Source: Lachnospiraceae bacterium
Lineage (GTDB): Bacteria > Bacillota > Clostridia > Lachnospirales > Lachnospiraceae
Assembly (NCBI GenBank): GCA_017476665.1
Contig: JAFUZJ010000064.1
Coordinates: forward strand, 34,455 to 98,454
DNA: 64,000 nucleotides
Reading direction: 5' to 3'
Shown: positions 46,160-53,529 of the stretch, piece after piece
How positions within the stretch are numbered: the stretch's first letter is position 1
Layout: the number at the start of each line of letters is the position of its first letter
The notes under the pieces: generated by a model
What the model was told of the DNA's origin: nothing
The model's database searches: none
Seen by the model: the letters and a program-made list of their open reading frames with translations, nothing else
Made by a program: the position numbers and the translations under genes

Positions 46160-47662
46160 ATGGCAAACACAAGCAGAAGAACCAACAGAAAAACAACCGG
46201 AAAAAAGAATTACAGCAGGAACCAATCTGCCGTCAGAAACCAGTCCGGCAGGAGGAAAAACAGCCGAAAGCGCAAAAAAATGCTTTACCGCAGGATCACG
46301 GTAGGCGTGATCGCGGCGGCTGCCCTTTTCCTGCTTCTTTTTGGCGTGCTCATAATTCAGAAGCAGATCCGTGCGGCGAGCAAAGTGGATACGGTACTGA
46401 TCTATGTGGACGGCGAGAACCTTTCCGATATGCCCAGAGAGCAGGCAAAGAAATTTTTAGGAGATAAGTATGCCTGGAACATGACCGTTTCCTATAATGA
46501 GCAGAGTATGCCGATTGAAAATCCGTTCACGGATGCAATCAATACGGTGGTCAACAGAGCTTTCAACGATGCCGAACTGGTACAGGAGAGATTGGACAGA
46601 AAAACTTTCTGGAACAAATTTTTCGGAAAAGAAGAGACAGAGCAGGTGGTCATCCGGTATGAGCTGGGCCTGCCGGATATCAGTGAGATCGCGGCCAGTC
46701 TGGCTTCTGAGGTCGCAGCGCAGTGGAGTGTACCTGCAAAGAACTGTGTCATAACAGGATACAATGCGGGCAGCGGACTTTTCGAATTCTCCCAGGCAGT
46801 GGACGGCAAAGAAATTGATGAAGAAAAGCTGAAAACAGATATCTTAAATGCATATGAAAGTCAGGATTATCAGGCGGCGCTTACCGCGCATGCCTATTCG
46901 GTAGAGCCGCAGATCCTTTCGACGGATTATCGTGTCATTGGTTCCTATACCACGACCACAACGAACAATCAGGACCGCAATACCAATGTCCGCTTGGCTG
47001 CCGAGGCAGTGAACGGACAGATCATACAGCCCGGAGAGCAGTTTTCCTATAACACGGTGGTGGGAGAGCGTACCGCGGCAAAGGGGTATAAACCGGCGGC
47101 AGCTTACGCCAACGGCGAGACCGTGCAGGAATACGGCGGCGGTGTCTGCCAGGTGTCCAGCACACTTTATAACGCGGTGATCGCAGCGGGATTGCAGACC
47201 AACGAAAGAACGGGACATTCTTATGAACCTACCTATGTGACGCCCGGCCAGGATGCCACAGTCAGCTATAGGAAGCCGGACTTCGTGTTCACGAACACGA
47301 GTGAGGTGCCTGTGGGAATCCGTACGTCTTTCCAGAACCGTACCATGTATGTGGAGATTTTCGGTGTGCCGATCCTGGAGGAGGGAACGAAGCGTTATAT
47401 GGAATCCAAGCAGGTGTCTCTTTTGGATCCGCCGGCACCCACTTATGTGGAAGATCCGGCAGTGCCTTACGGCGAGGAAGTTGTGGCGAAAAATGCTACC
47501 AATGGCAGTATCTGGACGACAGATATTGTTCTGGAGAAAGACGGCGAGATCCTGGAGAGGACTTACCTGCATCGGACAAATTATAAGGGACATGCGGCGG
47601 TGATTCACCGAAACACCCAGACGCCCCCGGCGGAACCTGCTCCGGCAGATGACGATGATTGA
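46160..47662 (+). CDS. VanW-family cell-envelope protein
   Basis: A 500-residue protein. A very basic cytoplasmic N-terminus (about 1-43) precedes one membrane helix (about 45-68). The outer part has a PG-binding-4-like region (about 75-265), then the VanW domain (about 275-400) with NVRLAAEAVNGQIIQPGEQFS and the conserved EYGGGVCQVSSTLYNA. A G5-like or beta-rich end and an acidic PAEPAPADDDD tail finish it. VanW was named from vancomycin resistance clusters, but most copies, such as this one, lie outside them and their role in peptidoglycan maintenance is unknown. It is one base after the HipB-like gene. Confidence 0.92.
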   Translation: MANTSRRTNRKTTGKKNYSRNQSAVRNQSGRRKNSRKRKKMLYRRITVGVIAAAALFLLLFGVLIIQKQIRAASKVDTVLIYVDGENLSDMPREQAKKFLGDKYAWNMTVSYNEQSMPIENPFTDAINTVVNRAFNDAELVQERLDRKTFWNKFFGKEETEQVVIRYELGLPDISEIAASLASEVAAQWSVPAKNCVITGYNAGSGLFEFSQAVDGKEIDEEKLKTDILNAYESQDYQAALTAHAYSVEPQILSTDYRVIGSYTTTTTNNQDRNTNVRLAAEAVNGQIIQPGEQFSYNTVVGERTAAKGYKPAAAYANGETVQEYGGGVCQVSSTLYNAVIAAGLQTNERTGHSYEPTYVTPGQDATVSYRKPDFVFTNTSEVPVGIRTSFQNRTMYVEIFGVPILEEGTKRYMESKQVSLLDPPAPTYVEDPAVPYGEEVVAKNATNGSIWTTDIVLEKDGEILERTYLHRTNYKGHAAVIHRNTQTPPAEPAPADDDD

Positions 47663-47695: not shown

Positions 47696-47950
47696 ATGGA
47701 AGATAGAACGATCAATATGACGGTTTCACCTGTGTGTACAAAGAATGGGATGAAAGTGGCGTATGTCTCTTTCACAGACGGAGAGCGCACAGCGGAGGGA
47801 GAGATTCCCGGATGCAGGATCACGCAGAACAAAGGCTTCGATGCGAACGAAGTGGAGCAGTTGGAGAATTACATGCGTCGTGAACTCACGGCCCTAAAGA
47901 AGATGGCGGCCCGCATCAATGTTTTGGATGCATTCATGGGTAAGAAATAA
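47696..47950 (+). CDS. conserved small hypothetical protein (84 aa)
   Basis: An 84-residue protein with a beta-rich N-terminal half (VSPVCTKNGMKVAYVSFTDG, then RTAEGEIPGCRI) and a C-terminal helix (FDANEVEQLENYMRRELTAL). Proteins of this size and shape are conserved in Lachnospiraceae without a known function. GAGGAGG precedes ATG 47696. It lies 33 bases after vanW and 46 bases before moeA, so the three likely share a transcript. Confidence 0.72.
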   Translation: MEDRTINMTVSPVCTKNGMKVAYVSFTDGERTAEGEIPGCRITQNKGFDANEVEQLENYMRRELTALKKMAARINVLDAFMGKK

Positions 47951-47996
47951 AACGCAGACAAGACAGGAAAGACTGCAGGCGGAAGCGGAGGCTAAC

Positions 47997-49214
47997 ATGG
48001 CACAGGAAAAAACACCTGAAATTGAAGAATGTCTGGAAAGACTTTTACAATATGCAAAGGCACAGCCGGCGGAGGAAGTACCTATTCTGGAGGCCACAGG
48101 CAAAGTGCTGGCGGAGGAGGTCATAGCACAGATTTCCGTGCCGCCCTACCCGAAGTCCGCTATGGACGGCTATGCGGTCTGCGCCGCAGATCTTGCAGGT
48201 GCGGACAGAGAGCGCCCCGTGCAATTTGCCGTAAAAGGCAAGCTGATGGCGGGAGATTATGAGGAAATTTCCTATGAGAAAAATACGGCGGTTCGTGTCA
48301 TGACGGGAGCGTTTATCCCTGAGGGATATGATGCGGTGATCCGGCAGGAGGACACGGATTATGGTGAGGATACCGTGACCATCTATACCGACACCAAGCC
48401 GTATATGAATTACTGCAAAATGGGCGAGGATATTCAGGCAGAGCAGCCCCTGCTGTCTGCACACACCAGACTGACGCCGCTGCATATCGGATTATTGGCA
48501 GAGGTGGGTATTGAAAAAGTAAAGGTTTATAAGCCTCTGCGCGCGGCAATCCTCTGTACCGGTTCGGAACTGATGAATGTGGGGCAGCCTTTGCAGCCCG
48601 GCAAGATTTACAATAACATTTCTTATATTCTTTCTTCCGCCATCCGCAGGGAAGGCTTGGAGGTTTCTGCCATGCAGATCTGTGAGGACGAGATAGATAT
48701 TTTGTCACAGAAACTGCAGAAGGCGTTGGAGTGTTCAGACCTGGTCATCACCACCGGCGGCGTGTCCGTGGGACAGAAAGACCTGATCCCGGAGGTGCTG
48801 CAAAAGCTGGGAGCGGATATCCTGTTTCGCAGAGCAAATATCCAGCCTGGCACCCCCACCACCGGCAGCGTCAAGGACGGCAAGATTATTTTAAGTCTGT
48901 CCGGAAATCCTTACGCGGCAACTGTCAATTTTGAGATCTATTTCTGGTCGTTGGCAGCGAAAATGATGGGGCACGAAAGCTTCGATACCCGGAAACGGAC
49001 GGCGGTGTTGCAAACCCCATATCCGAAGAAAAATCATGCCAGAAGGTTTCTGCGGGCATACTATGAAAACGGCGAAGTGACTTTGCCTTCCCCGGTGCAC
49101 GCTTCCTCGGTGATTTCCAATCTGACACAGTGCAATTGCTATATTGATCTGGAGAAAGGCAGAGAGGTGCGGGTAGGGGACGAAGTGTGCGTCCGCATGA
49201 TCAAGGGGCAGTAA
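47997..49214 (+). CDS. moeA: molybdopterin molybdenumtransferase
   Basis: A 405-residue MoeA, which inserts molybdate into adenylylated molybdopterin. Domain III carries LCTGSELMNVGQPLQPGKIY and the active-site TTGGVSVGQKDLIPEVL. PPYPKSAMDGYAVCAADLAG lies near residue 45, and LSGNPYAATVNFEIYFW near 300. ATG 47997 follows GCGGAGG; the frame is open further upstream within the preceding gene but without a ribosome binding site. No molybdoenzyme or other moa/mog gene is nearby, so the pathway must be completed elsewhere. Confidence 0.95.
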   Translation: MAQEKTPEIEECLERLLQYAKAQPAEEVPILEATGKVLAEEVIAQISVPPYPKSAMDGYAVCAADLAGADRERPVQFAVKGKLMAGDYEEISYEKNTAVRVMTGAFIPEGYDAVIRQEDTDYGEDTVTIYTDTKPYMNYCKMGEDIQAEQPLLSAHTRLTPLHIGLLAEVGIEKVKVYKPLRAAILCTGSELMNVGQPLQPGKIYNNISYILSSAIRREGLEVSAMQICEDEIDILSQKLQKALECSDLVITTGGVSVGQKDLIPEVLQKLGADILFRRANIQPGTPTTGSVKDGKIILSLSGNPYAATVNFEIYFWSLAAKMMGHESFDTRKRTAVLQTPYPKKNHARRFLRAYYENGEVTLPSPVHASSVISNLTQCNCYIDLEKGREVRVGDEVCVRMIKGQ

Positions 49215-49278
49215 AGATTACATTAAAAATACATTGGTATGGTATTCTGTATCTGACAAAACAAAGGAGGATGCTGTA

Positions 49279-49974
49279 ATGGCGATCAAAGCGGAGATTC
49301 TGCTGATCGAGGATGATCCTGATATTGCGGAGAACATACAGGAATATCTGACCAATAAAAGCAAGGGACAGTGGACGCTTCATATTGCGGACAACGGGAG
49401 GGACGGCGCAGAGCTTGCGGCGGAGGAGGACTATGCCGTGATTTTGCTGGATGTCAATCTGCCCGGCATGGACGGATTCGCAGTCTGCCGAAACTTAAGA
49501 AAGCAGGGGATTCAGACACCGGTCATTTTCCTGACCGCGCGGTTTGCCGAGGAGGATGCCCTGAAAGGTTACGAGAGCGGCGGGGATGATTATCTGGTCA
49601 AGCCTTTTTCTCTGGCGCAGCTGTTCGCGAAGATGAGTGCCCTGCTGAACCGTTTAAACGGCGGCGCGCAGGAGGAGTTTACCTGCGGGGATCTGACCGT
49701 AAATCGCAGTGAGCGAAAGATTTTCCTCAGGGGCGAGGCGCTTACGCTGCCGCCCAAGGAGTATGATATTCTGCTTTATTTTCTGGAACATCCGAACCGT
49801 CTTATCAGCAAAGAGAGTCTGATCGTCGGAGCATGGGGCTACGACAGTGAGATGACGGAGCGGGGTCTTGACAATCACATCAAAAATATTCGCAAAGCCA
49901 TTCAAGCCTCCGAAATGCAGATAACCACCATACGCAAATTGGGTTATCGGTTTGGTCAGAAAGGAGCGCAATGA
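49279..49974 (+). CDS. OmpR-family response regulator
   Basis: A 231-residue regulator. The acidic pair is in LLIEDDPDIAEN, the phosphoacceptor Asp in VILLDVNLPGMDGF, the Thr in IFLTARF and the Lys in DDYLVKPFS. The winged helix (about 130-228) has LPPKEYDILLYFLEHPNRL and recognition-region residues around ERGLDNHIKNIRKAI. AAAGGAGG precedes ATG 49279. The stop overlaps the kinase start (ATGA), so the pair is coupled. Compared with the first system in the window, no ABC exporter follows. Confidence 0.95.
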   Translation: MAIKAEILLIEDDPDIAENIQEYLTNKSKGQWTLHIADNGRDGAELAAEEDYAVILLDVNLPGMDGFAVCRNLRKQGIQTPVIFLTARFAEEDALKGYESGGDDYLVKPFSLAQLFAKMSALLNRLNGGAQEEFTCGDLTVNRSERKIFLRGEALTLPPKEYDILLYFLEHPNRLISKESLIVGAWGYDSEMTERGLDNHIKNIRKAIQASEMQITTIRKLGYRFGQKGAQ

Positions 49975-52262
49975 AAAACAATCGGAAAAAATACGGAAAG
50001 ATCTGGGTTGCAGCACTTTTTCTCGCGCTGATCGTCTGTGCCTTGTATCGCGTTGTGGTCACTTATGTGGTGGAAAACTGGGTGCTGCAGAATGGGGGTG
50101 ACCTGATCGCACCGGCATATCTGGCGCATTTTGCGGATCTGACGGAGAAACGGTTTGCGGGCACCATGGAGGAAATCCAGGAAAACAGTATTGTCGCTTC
50201 CAATGAAGATCTGTGGAATGTGTATTATCAGGCTGTGAATGATAAGGTACAGCCCAGCGGCGTTTCCGTTTATGACCTTGCCACTGTTCTGTGGATAGCA
50301 GACAAGGACGGAAATATTGTGTTGCCGGGGAATTATACTGTTTTTCATCATGAAAAAAAATGGGTGTTGGCAGATATGGCAGCCTGCTTTTCGGAGGAAG
50401 ATCTGCAGGATCTTACGCAGATAGGATCTGAGATGCGGGAATCTGAGATGAGTGATAGACTGCCGTTTCAGAGTCACACCATGGAGATGACAAAGTATAT
50501 TGTACATGACGGTATCTGTTATCCGCTGCAGATCTTGGTGACAAAAGAAGACGGTGAAGTATTGAATTTTGAGGGAACGCCGGATTTTGAAATTACAACC
50601 GATGAACTCGTGACAGATGTATCCTATGAGTGGTTGGATGAGACACAGGATTTTACCGATCCGAATTACCGGGAGATCAAAGAATATACCAAAAAGGTTT
50701 TAGTCGGACATACCGCCGGGGAGAAATATGATGCCGCCAAAATGCTATCCTCCCAGGCAAAAATCGGAAATAAATATCTGAAAACAACGCAGTATATTCT
50801 GAATGACGGAGAATATCTGCTGTGTAAAGGGGAAATTAGCGATTACGGTCATTTTCTGCAGTCGGTCATCTGTCTGGGGTGGCTTGTTATTGCGTTAGTG
50901 GCGGTGTTCATTGCGACTATGATCACGCTCCTCCAGCAGAGGAAACTGCAAAAGGCAGAGTATGAGCGGGCGATCACCAACGCGTTGGCACACGATTACA
51001 AGTCCTCCCTTATGATTCAGCGCAGTTACGCAGAGAATCTGCTTTACGGCGTGTCGGAGGAAAAGAAACCATTATATGAGCAGAAAATCATGGATGAGAT
51101 TGATCATATGGATCAGCGCACCGAGCGGTTGCTTTCCCTGTTTCGCACCAATGCAGGCGGGCAGCCTGTCATGGAGGAAGAGATCGATGTGGAGGCACTC
51201 TGCAGGGAATTGGTGCGTAATTATGAGGAACTGTCGCGAAAGCGGGGATTGATCTGGAAGTTTGAGAGGACTGCAGATGGAGCGGGCAGTCGGACAGATA
51301 ACGGCAACGCGGGCAAAGATGATGGCGTACCCCTTATATTGTATGGGGATAAAGTCCTGCTTTCCATGGCAGTGGACAATCTGATCAATAATGCCTGCAA
51401 ATATAGTCTGGAAGATTCCGAGATTCTGCTTCGTTTTACGAAGGATAGACTGACCATTGAGAATCAGTGGCAGCCGGTGGAGAAATTCTTGAAGAAGCCG
51501 ACGCTTTTCTGGGAACCTTATGTGATCGGTGATGATGCCAGAACCTCCAGAAATTCCGGGATCGGTCTTGCTGCAGCCAAACAGATTCTGGAGCGCATGC
51601 ATCTGAATCTTTCGGTAAAAGCGGATCGGGAGGAGATTGCATTTATGGTGAAAAAGGGGTCGAAAAGAAAAAAGGGTAAAGGAGCGAGCAGCAAAGTACT
51701 TTCCATGTTCCTGATGATGCTTGTGACGTTTTCGGGCTGCGGCGCACAACGCCAGGTAAGCATTTTGGCGGACGAGGTGCAGGTGGATAGACTATATTAT
51801 TATGAATACAATGGCGCAGAGGGGATTTTTCTGTTAACGAAGGCGCCCACTTATTCAAAAGGTGGCGGCTGCGAGTACAAGTACGGTAAAAAGGTGTTGA
51901 ATCTGAATTATTATGCTGTTGCAGATGGAAGCAAGGTAGACAATAATTCAGGAGAGAGCTATCTGTTTCAGTATGATCTTGAGGGGCAGACCAAGTTAGC
52001 TATAAACGGGAAGGAAGTATGGAACGCTGAAAACAGCACTGCTTCCCAGGATGTGCCGGCTTATGTGTTAGAGGCAGCGAAACAGTCTGCCGCGCGGAAA
52101 CAGGGTGACACTGCGCATAACTACAGTTTCCTATACGGGAGCGGGGAAGGCGAGATCTATATGTATGACGAAAACGGAGTTGTGATGACCTGGGATCTGG
52201 ACGGAAATGTGCTCTCAGTGCGGGATGATTCGTATTTGAATGATCCATATTGGAGTAAGTGA
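49971..52262 (+). CDS. sensor histidine kinase continuing in frame into a lipoprotein-like domain
   Basis: A 763-codon gene. The membrane helix at about 12-32 and a large outer domain (about 33-300) lead to a second helix (about 303-330). The HisKA box is ALAHDYKSSLMIQ with His341; the HATPase N-box is VDNLINNACKYSL and the G2 box is NSGIGLAAAKQIL. The G1 box is degenerate (LTIENQWQP). The kinase core ends near residue 558. Without a stop, the frame continues with a basic stretch, the hydrophobic VLSMFLMMLV and FSGC, a textbook lipoprotein signal, then about 180 exported-type residues. Read through, this adds a third membrane segment and an outer C-terminal domain. A separate internal start is described below. 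Confidence 0.88.
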   Translation: MKNNRKKYGKIWVAALFLALIVCALYRVVVTYVVENWVLQNGGDLIAPAYLAHFADLTEKRFAGTMEEIQENSIVASNEDLWNVYYQAVNDKVQPSGVSVYDLATVLWIADKDGNIVLPGNYTVFHHEKKWVLADMAACFSEEDLQDLTQIGSEMRESEMSDRLPFQSHTMEMTKYIVHDGICYPLQILVTKEDGEVLNFEGTPDFEITTDELVTDVSYEWLDETQDFTDPNYREIKEYTKKVLVGHTAGEKYDAAKMLSSQAKIGNKYLKTTQYILNDGEYLLCKGEISDYGHFLQSVICLGWLVIALVAVFIATMITLLQQRKLQKAEYERAITNALAHDYKSSLMIQRSYAENLLYGVSEEKKPLYEQKIMDEIDHMDQRTERLLSLFRTNAGGQPVMEEEIDVEALCRELVRNYEELSRKRGLIWKFERTADGAGSRTDNGNAGKDDGVPLILYGDKVLLSMAVDNLINNACKYSLEDSEILLRFTKDRLTIENQWQPVEKFLKKPTLFWEPYVIGDDARTSRNSGIGLAAAKQILERMHLNLSVKADREEIAFMVKKGSKRKKGKGASSKVLSMFLMMLVTFSGCGAQRQVSILADEVQVDRLYYYEYNGAEGIFLLTKAPTYSKGGGCEYKYGKKVLNLNYYAVADGSKVDNNSGESYLFQYDLEGQTKLAINGKEVWNAENSTASQDVPAYVLEAAKQSAARKQGDTAHNYSFLYGSGEGEIYMYDENGVVMTWDLDGNVLSVRDDSYLNDPYWSK
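51645..52262 (+). CDS. putative internally initiated lipoprotein within the kinase frame
   Basis: ATG 51645 is in the kinase frame and preceded, nine bases away, by GGGAGGAG (51628-51635), a stronger ribosome binding site than the kinase's own. The 205-residue product would begin MVKKGSKRKKGKGASSK, an ideal basic n-region, with the core VLSMFLMMLVTF and the lipobox TFSGC. The mature part is rich in Tyr, Gly and Asn and ends GEIYMYDENGVVMTWDLDGN, a beta-rich repeat-like segment. It may be a partner that presents a signal to the kinase. Alternatively the two were separate genes and lost a stop or frame. Confidence 0.55.
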   Translation: MVKKGSKRKKGKGASSKVLSMFLMMLVTFSGCGAQRQVSILADEVQVDRLYYYEYNGAEGIFLLTKAPTYSKGGGCEYKYGKKVLNLNYYAVADGSKVDNNSGESYLFQYDLEGQTKLAINGKEVWNAENSTASQDVPAYVLEAAKQSAARKQGDTAHNYSFLYGSGEGEIYMYDENGVVMTWDLDGNVLSVRDDSYLNDPYWSK

Positions 52263-52275
52263 GGGAGAAGATACG

Positions 52276-52785
52276 ATGTCCGTTAAGGAGAAATTGTCCT
52301 ACATCATTTTCATATTGCTCCTGTTATTTCTGTTGTATTGTGCCGCATGGAGCGCTTACATTTCTTTGCGCTATGAACCTTTTCGGGCGGGATTTCCAGC
52401 CGGAAGCCATACTGTAGAGGAAAACGGGATAGAGTATGGTGTCTATCAGCATGGCTTTCCGGCGTGGACAGGCAATCTCTCCATAGGTCCCAAACAGAAG
52501 GTGGACCGGAGCAGGCCGGAGGAGGTCGGTGTCAGTTTGCTTATATGGCCCAGAGGACTGCATGATTATGAAGTCGCGGCATGGTTCTGGGAGTTGGTTC
52601 CGGATGAAAACGGTACGCTGCGGGTGGCGGTGCGGCATGTTGCGATGCTGGATGAGCGGATGAATCTGACGGACAGTGTGGAGAATACGACGGAGACCAG
52701 GAAACTCTATGAAGAAAACCGGGACAAGATTGAGAAGCTGTACCGATTGGCGCAGGAACGCTGGGGGATTTTGGGGACAGAATGA
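52276..52785 (+). CDS. membrane-anchored hypothetical protein
   Basis: A 169-residue protein with a long N-terminal hydrophobic helix (about 8-30; YIIFILLLLFLLY) and an outer domain of about 135 residues. ENGIEYGVYQHGFPAWTGNLS and SLLIWPRGLHDYEVAAWFWEL are its most regular parts; the end is a charged helix. It has no recognised family. ATG 52276 follows GAGGGAGA 13 bases after the kinase-lipoprotein stop, so it is probably the third or fourth product of the two-component operon and an accessory surface protein. Confidence 0.72.
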   Translation: MSVKEKLSYIIFILLLLFLLYCAAWSAYISLRYEPFRAGFPAGSHTVEENGIEYGVYQHGFPAWTGNLSIGPKQKVDRSRPEEVGVSLLIWPRGLHDYEVAAWFWELVPDENGTLRVAVRHVAMLDERMNLTDSVENTTETRKLYEENRDKIEKLYRLAQERWGILGTE

Positions 52786-52928
52786 AAGAATGCTGAAGCA
52801 TATGGTTTCGAATCGTTCGAGTTGAAAGCTCTCTTTTTTTTGGTATAATAAAAGTGTTGGGAGAAAGATGAAATAGGGAGTTTGCAATTGTCCATTGAAA
52901 ATTTAGATTGAAAGGCAGGGGAAAATGA

Positions 52929-53390
52929 ATGACAGAGAAAGCAGAAAAGGCTTATAAATTCTATGGCTGGGAGCATGCAACTGTTCCTGCGGTCACCGGA
53001 GAATACCCGGGAATTCATACCCCGCAGGATCTGTATGCTGCACTTTCTGAAATTTGGTGTGCGGACACCTGTGCGCCGCGCATGCGGGCAGATTGGAGCG
53101 CAGAGAATAAGACGCTGGGACAGTGTTCCATCACGGCCTTTCTGGCGCAGGATATCTTTGGCGGCAAGGTGTGCGGCATTCTCAGACCCGGCGGAAACTA
53201 TCACTGCTATAATGTGGTAGGAGATTGCGTCTTTGATCTCACCAGTGAGCAGTTTGGAAACGAAGTGTTAAATTATGAGGACAATCCGGAGCAACTCAGG
53301 GAAGTGCATTTTGCAAAGGAAGAAAAGCGGCTGCGGTATGAGAAACTGAAGGAAGAGTTGAAGAAATGGCGGCGTCAAGTTTACGATTGA
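52929..53390 (+). CDS. YunG-like papain-fold protein
   Basis: A 153-residue cytosolic protein similar to B. subtilis YunG. TLGQCSITAFLAQDIFGG supplies the candidate nucleophile Cys, GGNYHCYNVVGDCVFDLTS the His and Asp, in the order of a papain-like fold. N-terminal PGIHTPQDLYAALSEIW and C-terminal basic helices frame the domain. The activity of this family is unknown. ATG 52929 follows a purine-rich GGGGAAAA region. Its last 95 bases are overlapped on the other strand by a truncated coiled-coil gene. Confidence 0.75.
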   Translation: MTEKAEKAYKFYGWEHATVPAVTGEYPGIHTPQDLYAALSEIWCADTCAPRMRADWSAENKTLGQCSITAFLAQDIFGGKVCGILRPGGNYHCYNVVGDCVFDLTSEQFGNEVLNYEDNPEQLREVHFAKEEKRLRYEKLKEELKKWRRQVYD

Positions 53391-53529
53391 AATCAAGATG
53401 TCCTTCTGCAATCAATTTAATGTTGCGGTTTGTTTCATTTTCAAGCGTGAGCTGAATGCTTCGTATTTCTTGCCGGAGGGGTTCCAGTAATTGCTCAATT
53501 GCTTGAAGATCCTCATTTGTTAATGCCAT
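53296..53529 (-). pseudogene. truncated coiled-coil hypothetical protein
   Basis: ATG 53529 has an excellent GAGGAGGTG ribosome binding site, and the first 50 residues have the phrase LENETNRNIKLIAEGHLDFN, characteristic of a common Lachnospiraceae coiled-coil protein (usually about 100 residues with a second helical half). After about residue 52 the similarity ends and the frame runs antisense through the end of the YunG-like gene. It is most likely a 3'-truncated remnant. Confidence 0.55.

Follow-up and report, generated by a model that had tools for sequence, protein, structure and literature searches.

The sequence considered here (the window) is a stretch of 64,000 nucleotides from a Lachnospiraceae bacterium (assembly GCA_017476665.1, contig JAFUZJ010000064.1, positions 34,455–98,454 of the forward strand); positions given below count from its first letter. 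One open reading frame (ORF) on the plus strand, at 49971–52262, comprises 763 codons without an internal stop and joins a histidine kinase, a lipoprotein-type segment and a further domain, as the first-pass annotation of this DNA had proposed. The product has a computed mass of 86.5 kDa and is arranged as a transmembrane segment, an outside sensor, a second transmembrane segment, a kinase core reaching to approximately residue 560, a basic linker, a hydrophobic stretch of 14 residues, the lipobox FSGC and a domain of 174 amino acids (aa). The same fusion is present in two related loci, L039 and L040.

Hydropathy analysis distinguished two strong membrane segments, at residues 6–39 and 291–326, which flank a probable extracytoplasmic sensor loop (approximately residues 34–300; 50070–50870). 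A third, weaker segment was found at residues 572–593 (KD19 peak of 1.45 at residue 574). The kinase core (50973–51650) is composed of a HisKA-like region (residues 335–396) and a HATPase_c domain (residues 459–554). The latter scored 26.2 bits in the protein search (E 1.2e-05), just below the cut-off of 26.4, and 30.3 bits, above the cut-off, in a six-frame search. The HisKA match is weak (E 0.039, below the cut-off); His341, within the motif AHDYKSSLM, is kept in all three fusions. Sequence matches of the core in the PDB are kinases (best E 2e-06). The end of the core had previously been placed near codon 558.

Beyond the HATPase_c match the frame reads KKGSKRKKGKGASSK-VLSMFLMMLVTFSG-C, that is, a basic linker, the hydrophobic stretch VLSMFLMMLVTFSG and Cys590 (51738–51740), followed by the C-terminal domain. 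The linker, the stretch and the lipobox, identified by sequence, hydropathy and a lipobox pattern survey, occupy positions 51648–51740, and the C-terminal domain, 19.4 kDa including Cys590, extends over 51738–52259.

A single scan of public genome contigs returned three loci. The fusion is complete in two of them: L039 (DFDT01000195.1, Lachnospiraceae bacterium UBA3821) and L040 (CADBNO010000220.1, uncultured Lachnospiraceae bacterium RUG14141), respectively 84% and 83% identical to the window; the match in the third, L041, is restricted to part of the ATPase domain (30% identity). The first-pass annotation had proposed a comparison of orthologous loci for a stop codon or frameshift separating two genes. 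Neither occurs at the junction of L039 or L040, where the frame, the GGGAGGAG motif, the ATG, the hydrophobic stretch and the Cys residue are all kept, and the N-terminal 327 residues share 83% identity with those of the window in both cases. An assembly error or a missing stop codon was therefore ruled out as the origin of the junction. An artefact joining two genes might have been suspected in a draft genome of 72 contigs with an A-rich junction, the more so as L039 and L040 are, by their titles, metagenome assemblies too, but with the same uninterrupted junction in two public contigs at 83–84% identity its probability is close to negligible. Outside the junction, L039 and L040 have 15 codons after window codon 95, in the sensor loop, that are absent from the window, and lack five others, and a variable stretch preceding the ATPase domain is longer in both than in the window.

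At an E-value threshold of 0.001, the N-terminal half of the kinase was detected in 3 of 138 genomes of the genus (the host genome, G102 and G124). In all likelihood the latter two are the source genomes of L039 and L040, and three genomes, not five, were counted. The kinase is fused in all three, and no relative of it without the fusion was found in the genomes scanned. Other kinases of the genus end differently: a sample of 101 genomes gave 29 non-self kinase loci, and in the ten examined (L006–L015, the best-scoring of those with loci) the protein invariably ends with the ATPase domain or no more than some 20 residues away. In the host genome, 30 of 42 HATPase_c matches, not all of them kinases, were surveyed for their tails, viewed to 160 residues (4 of the 30 run off the stretch); by eye, no lipobox immediately follows the ATPase domain in any of these 30 other proteins.

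The ratio of non-synonymous to synonymous substitution rates (dN/dS, calculated by NG86) in comparisons with the window is 0.16–0.17 for the kinase core, 0.18 for the sensor and 0.16–0.28 for the C-terminal domain. For the pair L039–L040 the values are 0.10 (core), 0.27 (C-terminal domain) and 0.81 (sensor), the last with a dS of a mere 0.014. Purifying selection acts on both halves in a single frame, and in these sequence comparisons the fusion looks like a real, derived trait of a small lineage.

The first-pass annotation had further predicted a second product, a free lipoprotein translated from an internal ribosome binding site. The candidate site, GGGAGGAG (51628–51635), lies nine bases ahead of an in-frame ATG (M559; 51645–51647). 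Initiation there, alone or on top of any other mode of expression, would add to the full fusion a 205-aa prelipoprotein of 22.8 kDa with an n-region of 17 aa; with this hypothetical start, and only with it, the lipoprotein signal, which occupies residues 559–590 of the 763, would be N-terminal. The motif and its spacing are conserved in L039 and L040, and its Shine-Dalgarno (SD) match of five is the longest among the 20 in-frame internal ATGs tested. However, an SD match of this length appeared in 43% of 5000 synonymous resamplings that kept the same seven residues and the codon use of the genome; GGGAGGAG largely follows from the residues R-E-E encoded there. In addition, synonymous change at codons 548–592 affected 7 of 31 aa-identical degenerate columns, similar to 153 of 580 overall, which reveals no synonymous constraint at the junction. 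The longest run without synonymous change (codons 78–103) is located away from it and was reached by 14% of 2000 shuffles. The motif, its spacing and its conservation thus stand, while its value as evidence for a second product does not, and the site as a selected feature is unsupported.

The length of the n-region was compared with lipoprotein candidates among 323 ORFs from the window and 17 further stretches of the same genome, found with patterns of our own that required a nearby SD-like motif. The n-regions of nine candidates measure 4–10 aa, with a pattern that could not find any longer than 14 aa. Without the length limit, 13 candidates were obtained, spanning 4–34 aa, so a 17-aa n-region, towards the upper part of this range, does not exclude a start at ATG 51645. 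Nevertheless, 10 of the 13 have n-regions of at most 13 aa and the remaining three are doubtful by eye: two are unlike lipoproteins (hydrophobic residues continue beyond the Cys) and one would become shorter by use of an internal Met. Taken together, we regard internal initiation as unlikely.

A different source of two products could be −1 slippage, programmed or accidental, at A_AAA_AAG (51668–51674), which we take to be a slippery heptamer. It is directly followed by GGG TAA in the −1 frame (the two together occupy 51668–51679), where some of the kinase would end as a 569-aa protein of about 65 kDa, giving forms with and without the C-terminal domain. All three sequences retain the −1 stop; however, it is dictated by the codons for Gly-Lys or Ser-Lys, and the heptamer itself is replaced by G_AAA_AAG in L039 and L040. 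This makes slippage very improbable.

At E 0.1 the C-terminal domain matched neither a Pfam nor an NCBIfam family, and against solved structures its best E was 0.42, taken as no match. A search of plasmids was without a hit at E 0.01. A search with the 205-aa C-terminal part matched genome G107 of the genus (E 6.2e-4, 25% identity), and a three-row profile of the same part matched G461 among 397 genomes (E 2.4e-6); both E values refer to a single genome. Both homologs (L038 and L042) contain a zf-HC2 zinc finger (E 8.2e-09 and 2.7e-11), followed by one membrane segment and then by the homologous domain, and next to each lies a gene that encodes sigma-70 regions 2 and 4 and has the size of extracytoplasmic function (ECF) sigma factors. 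Alignment of the three fusion domains with the two anti-sigma domains by hhalign, with few sequences per side, gave 96.6% (E 5.5e-10, 139 columns), and a W-D/N-L-D-G motif near the end is common to both groups. This homology between the C-terminal domain of the fusion and the outside part of two zf-HC2 anti-sigma proteins is the new finding here. In the fusion as in the anti-sigma proteins, a C-terminal domain of this type follows an inside signalling domain and a membrane segment; it is a feature of these two zf-HC2 proteins and does not define their family. The fusion and the anti-sigma proteins differ in the inside part, a zinc finger beside a sigma-factor gene in L038 and L042 and a kinase beside a response regulator, with no zf-HC2 match, in the fusion, and in the membrane segment, which comprises 26–28 uncharged residues in the anti-sigma proteins.

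The domain is rare. Counting the host genome each time, it was detected in 4 of 138 genomes of the genus at E 0.001 (the three with the fusion and G107), 2 of 397 of the family (the host and G461) and 1 of 295 of the order, and no further copy was found in the host genome at E 0.001. Its origin as a duplicate of the kinase's own N-terminal half was considered and rejected (hhalign probability of 0.1%). Since it is homologous to the outside domain of zf-HC2 anti-sigma proteins encoded beside sigma-factor genes, the C-terminal domain is probably an envelope signalling module, attached C-terminally to two inside domains of different kinds. The fusion thereby gives a function-related context to a domain without a Pfam or NCBIfam family that it has in common with anti-sigma proteins. 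That the kinase carries a C-terminal outer domain, as had been suggested earlier, is likewise plausible, given that the homologs follow a membrane segment.

At the junction a lipobox follows the hydrophobic stretch by pattern, FSGC in the window and L040 and FPGC in L039, with Gly589-Cys590 kept in all three fusions. The stretch is 14 residues long in each of them, within the range of the local candidates (13–19 residues, n = 9; 10–19 with the looser pattern, n = 13) and shorter than the uncharged membrane segments that bear the homologous domain in the anti-sigma proteins. The host genome encodes one match to LspA (E 1.8e-35) and one to Lgt (E 4.2e-59); in a control on 14 well-known genomes the Lgt model matched 9 (B. 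subtilis not included) and the LspA model 10. The length of the stretch, the kept Gly-Cys pair and the encoded Lgt and LspA speak for a working lipoprotein signal at the junction, more than a mere anchor.

We propose that one chain joins a sensor kinase with two transmembrane segments and its accessory lipoprotein. The kinase would be inserted with the sensor loop outside and the core inside, and the basic linker would hold the ATPase side in the cytoplasm while the 14-residue lipoprotein-type signal exports the C-terminal domain across the membrane. Cys590 would then be lipidated by Lgt and, as we are slightly inclined to believe, LspA would cut the chain before this residue. The two products, made in a 1:1 ratio, would be a kinase of roughly 67 kDa that retains a third membrane stub and a lipoprotein of roughly 19 kDa. 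The C-terminal domain would lie beside the kinase's own outside loop and might act on it in the manner of QseG and LpqB. We assign this reading, with lipidation, probable cleavage and action on the loop, a probability of roughly 0.44. A free lipoprotein would in this way arise by lipobox cleavage, without a second start, a route that the first-pass annotation had not included. Somewhat more tentatively, the frame may be seen as a signalling polyprotein, in which the internal signal is lipidated and cut by LspA to yield the kinase and its own lipoprotein 1:1, and in which cleavage could be regulated, freeing or arming the sensor.

Several points weigh against this proposal. The lipobox, described earlier as part of a perfect signal, does follow a hydrophobic stretch, but perfect it is not: it has F at −3, seen in 2 of the 9 local candidates (or 2 of 13 with the looser pattern), and in L039 also P at −2. 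In the anti-sigma homolog L042 a Cys residue (AAAC) lies midway along the membrane segment and is followed by a long run of hydrophobic residues, and L038 has no Cys there; because of L042, a Cys near the membrane alone is no mark of a lipoprotein. The 29-residue linker and signal stretch gave dN/dS values of 0.35, 0.09 and 0.57 in the three pairs, calculated from few sites. There are three fusion sequences in all, and two of them, L039 and L040, resemble each other more than either resembles the window. The sources consulted offer no precedent for cleavage after 589 residues of membrane and cytoplasmic protein, and the contact of the C-terminal domain with the sensor loop is suggested by analogy.

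In a rival reading the fusion is not cut and forms a three-pass kinase with two parts outside: the loop near the N-terminus and, held by the third segment with or without a lipid, the C-terminal domain. The two anti-sigma proteins carry the homologous domain behind a single membrane segment and an inside-type zinc finger, and the modest hydropathy peak at residue 574 fits weak membrane insertion. A 2009-aa frame elsewhere in the host genome (L102 720–6749, minus strand; contig C2 of G000) has two HATPase_c matches; by eye it reads as a kinase core and membrane segments, then a large repeat domain resembling the outside part of a hybrid two-component sensor, another kinase core, a receiver and, at the end, a possible Hpt domain. 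It thus has membrane segments and a large outside-type domain after its first ATPase domain, and a kinase core followed by outside parts is therefore not unique even in this genome. On the other hand, 14 hydrophobic residues are short for a spanning helix, and they end in the conserved Gly-Cys. We consider the uncut form somewhat less likely than the one proposed above.

The fusion is flanked by further genes. Directly upstream, a gene on the plus strand (49234–49974; the longest frame, the true start may be internal) encodes an OmpR/PhoB-type response regulator (Response_reg, E 3.2e-27; Trans_reg_C, E 1.1e-18), and its stop codon overlaps the start of the kinase (ATGA). Its position suggests that this OmpR-type regulator is the cognate partner of the fused kinase. 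Thirteen bases 3′ of the fusion, also on the plus strand, a gene at 52276–52785 encodes a 169-aa protein with an N-terminal hydrophobic segment, which is conserved in L039 and gave no match in a Pfam search; it may belong to the system as well. The two-component pair is preceded by genes for a VanW-like protein (46160–47662; a G5 match scored below its cut-off) and, immediately before the pair, a MoeA/Glp-like protein (47919–49214), and the order of these two genes is the same in L039. A scan of 49000–53500 for promoters and terminators distinguished seven promoter-like sites (5.4 expected from shuffles) and one terminator-like site (3.9 expected).

The proposed processing has a parallel in the FbcH cytochrome b/c1 polyprotein, in which one chain with an internal export signal is cut into two partners. 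FbcH differs from the kinase fusion in that signal peptidase I is involved and a respiratory complex is formed. Should the kinase fusion be cleaved at its lipobox, this would show that processing is possible for an internal lipoprotein signal preceded by a large cytoplasmic domain, and the accessory protein would be made in fixed ratio to its kinase; without cleavage, the kinase would have outside parts at both ends.

Kinases steered by a separate lipoprotein are described in enterobacteria and actinobacteria and proposed in Clostridioides difficile, and the fusion suggests such a partnership for this kinase. The first-pass annotation knew of no two-component system built this way; no kinase-lipoprotein fusion was found in the open-licence papers searched, although kinases with a separate accessory lipoprotein are on record. 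In enterobacteria, the lipoprotein QseG binds the outside loop of the kinase QseE and activates it, and both are encoded in one operon with the regulator. The QseE-QseG-QseF system resembles the fusion locus in bringing together a histidine kinase, a response regulator and a lipoprotein; it differs in that QseG is the product of a separate gene, against one frame in the Lachnospiraceae locus, and resides on the outer membrane. The likeness drawn here is one of arrangement.

In actinobacteria, lpqB is located directly downstream of mtrA-mtrB, and LpqB interacts with the outside domain of MtrB (PMC3353115). The order of regulator, kinase and lipoprotein is that of the fusion locus, whereas lpqB is a gene of its own; here the likeness concerns gene order. 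The wal operon of C. difficile contains the gene of the lipoprotein WalA, which may modulate WalK (PMC9210968), and is an example from a Firmicute of an operon that combines kinase and lipoprotein genes. In contrast to the fusion, walA is separate, is the first gene of the operon and encodes a predicted beta-propeller lyase domain. The separate accessory lipoprotein gene that defines three-component systems is not what was found here, since the lipoprotein-type part shares the frame of the kinase in all three fusions. By analogy, the working mode of the fusion resembles that of three-component kinase-lipoprotein systems, minus the separate gene and minus the N-terminal position of the signal: a kinase and what appears to be its helper lipoprotein share one continuous gene here, and other bacteria have such partners in separate adjacent genes.

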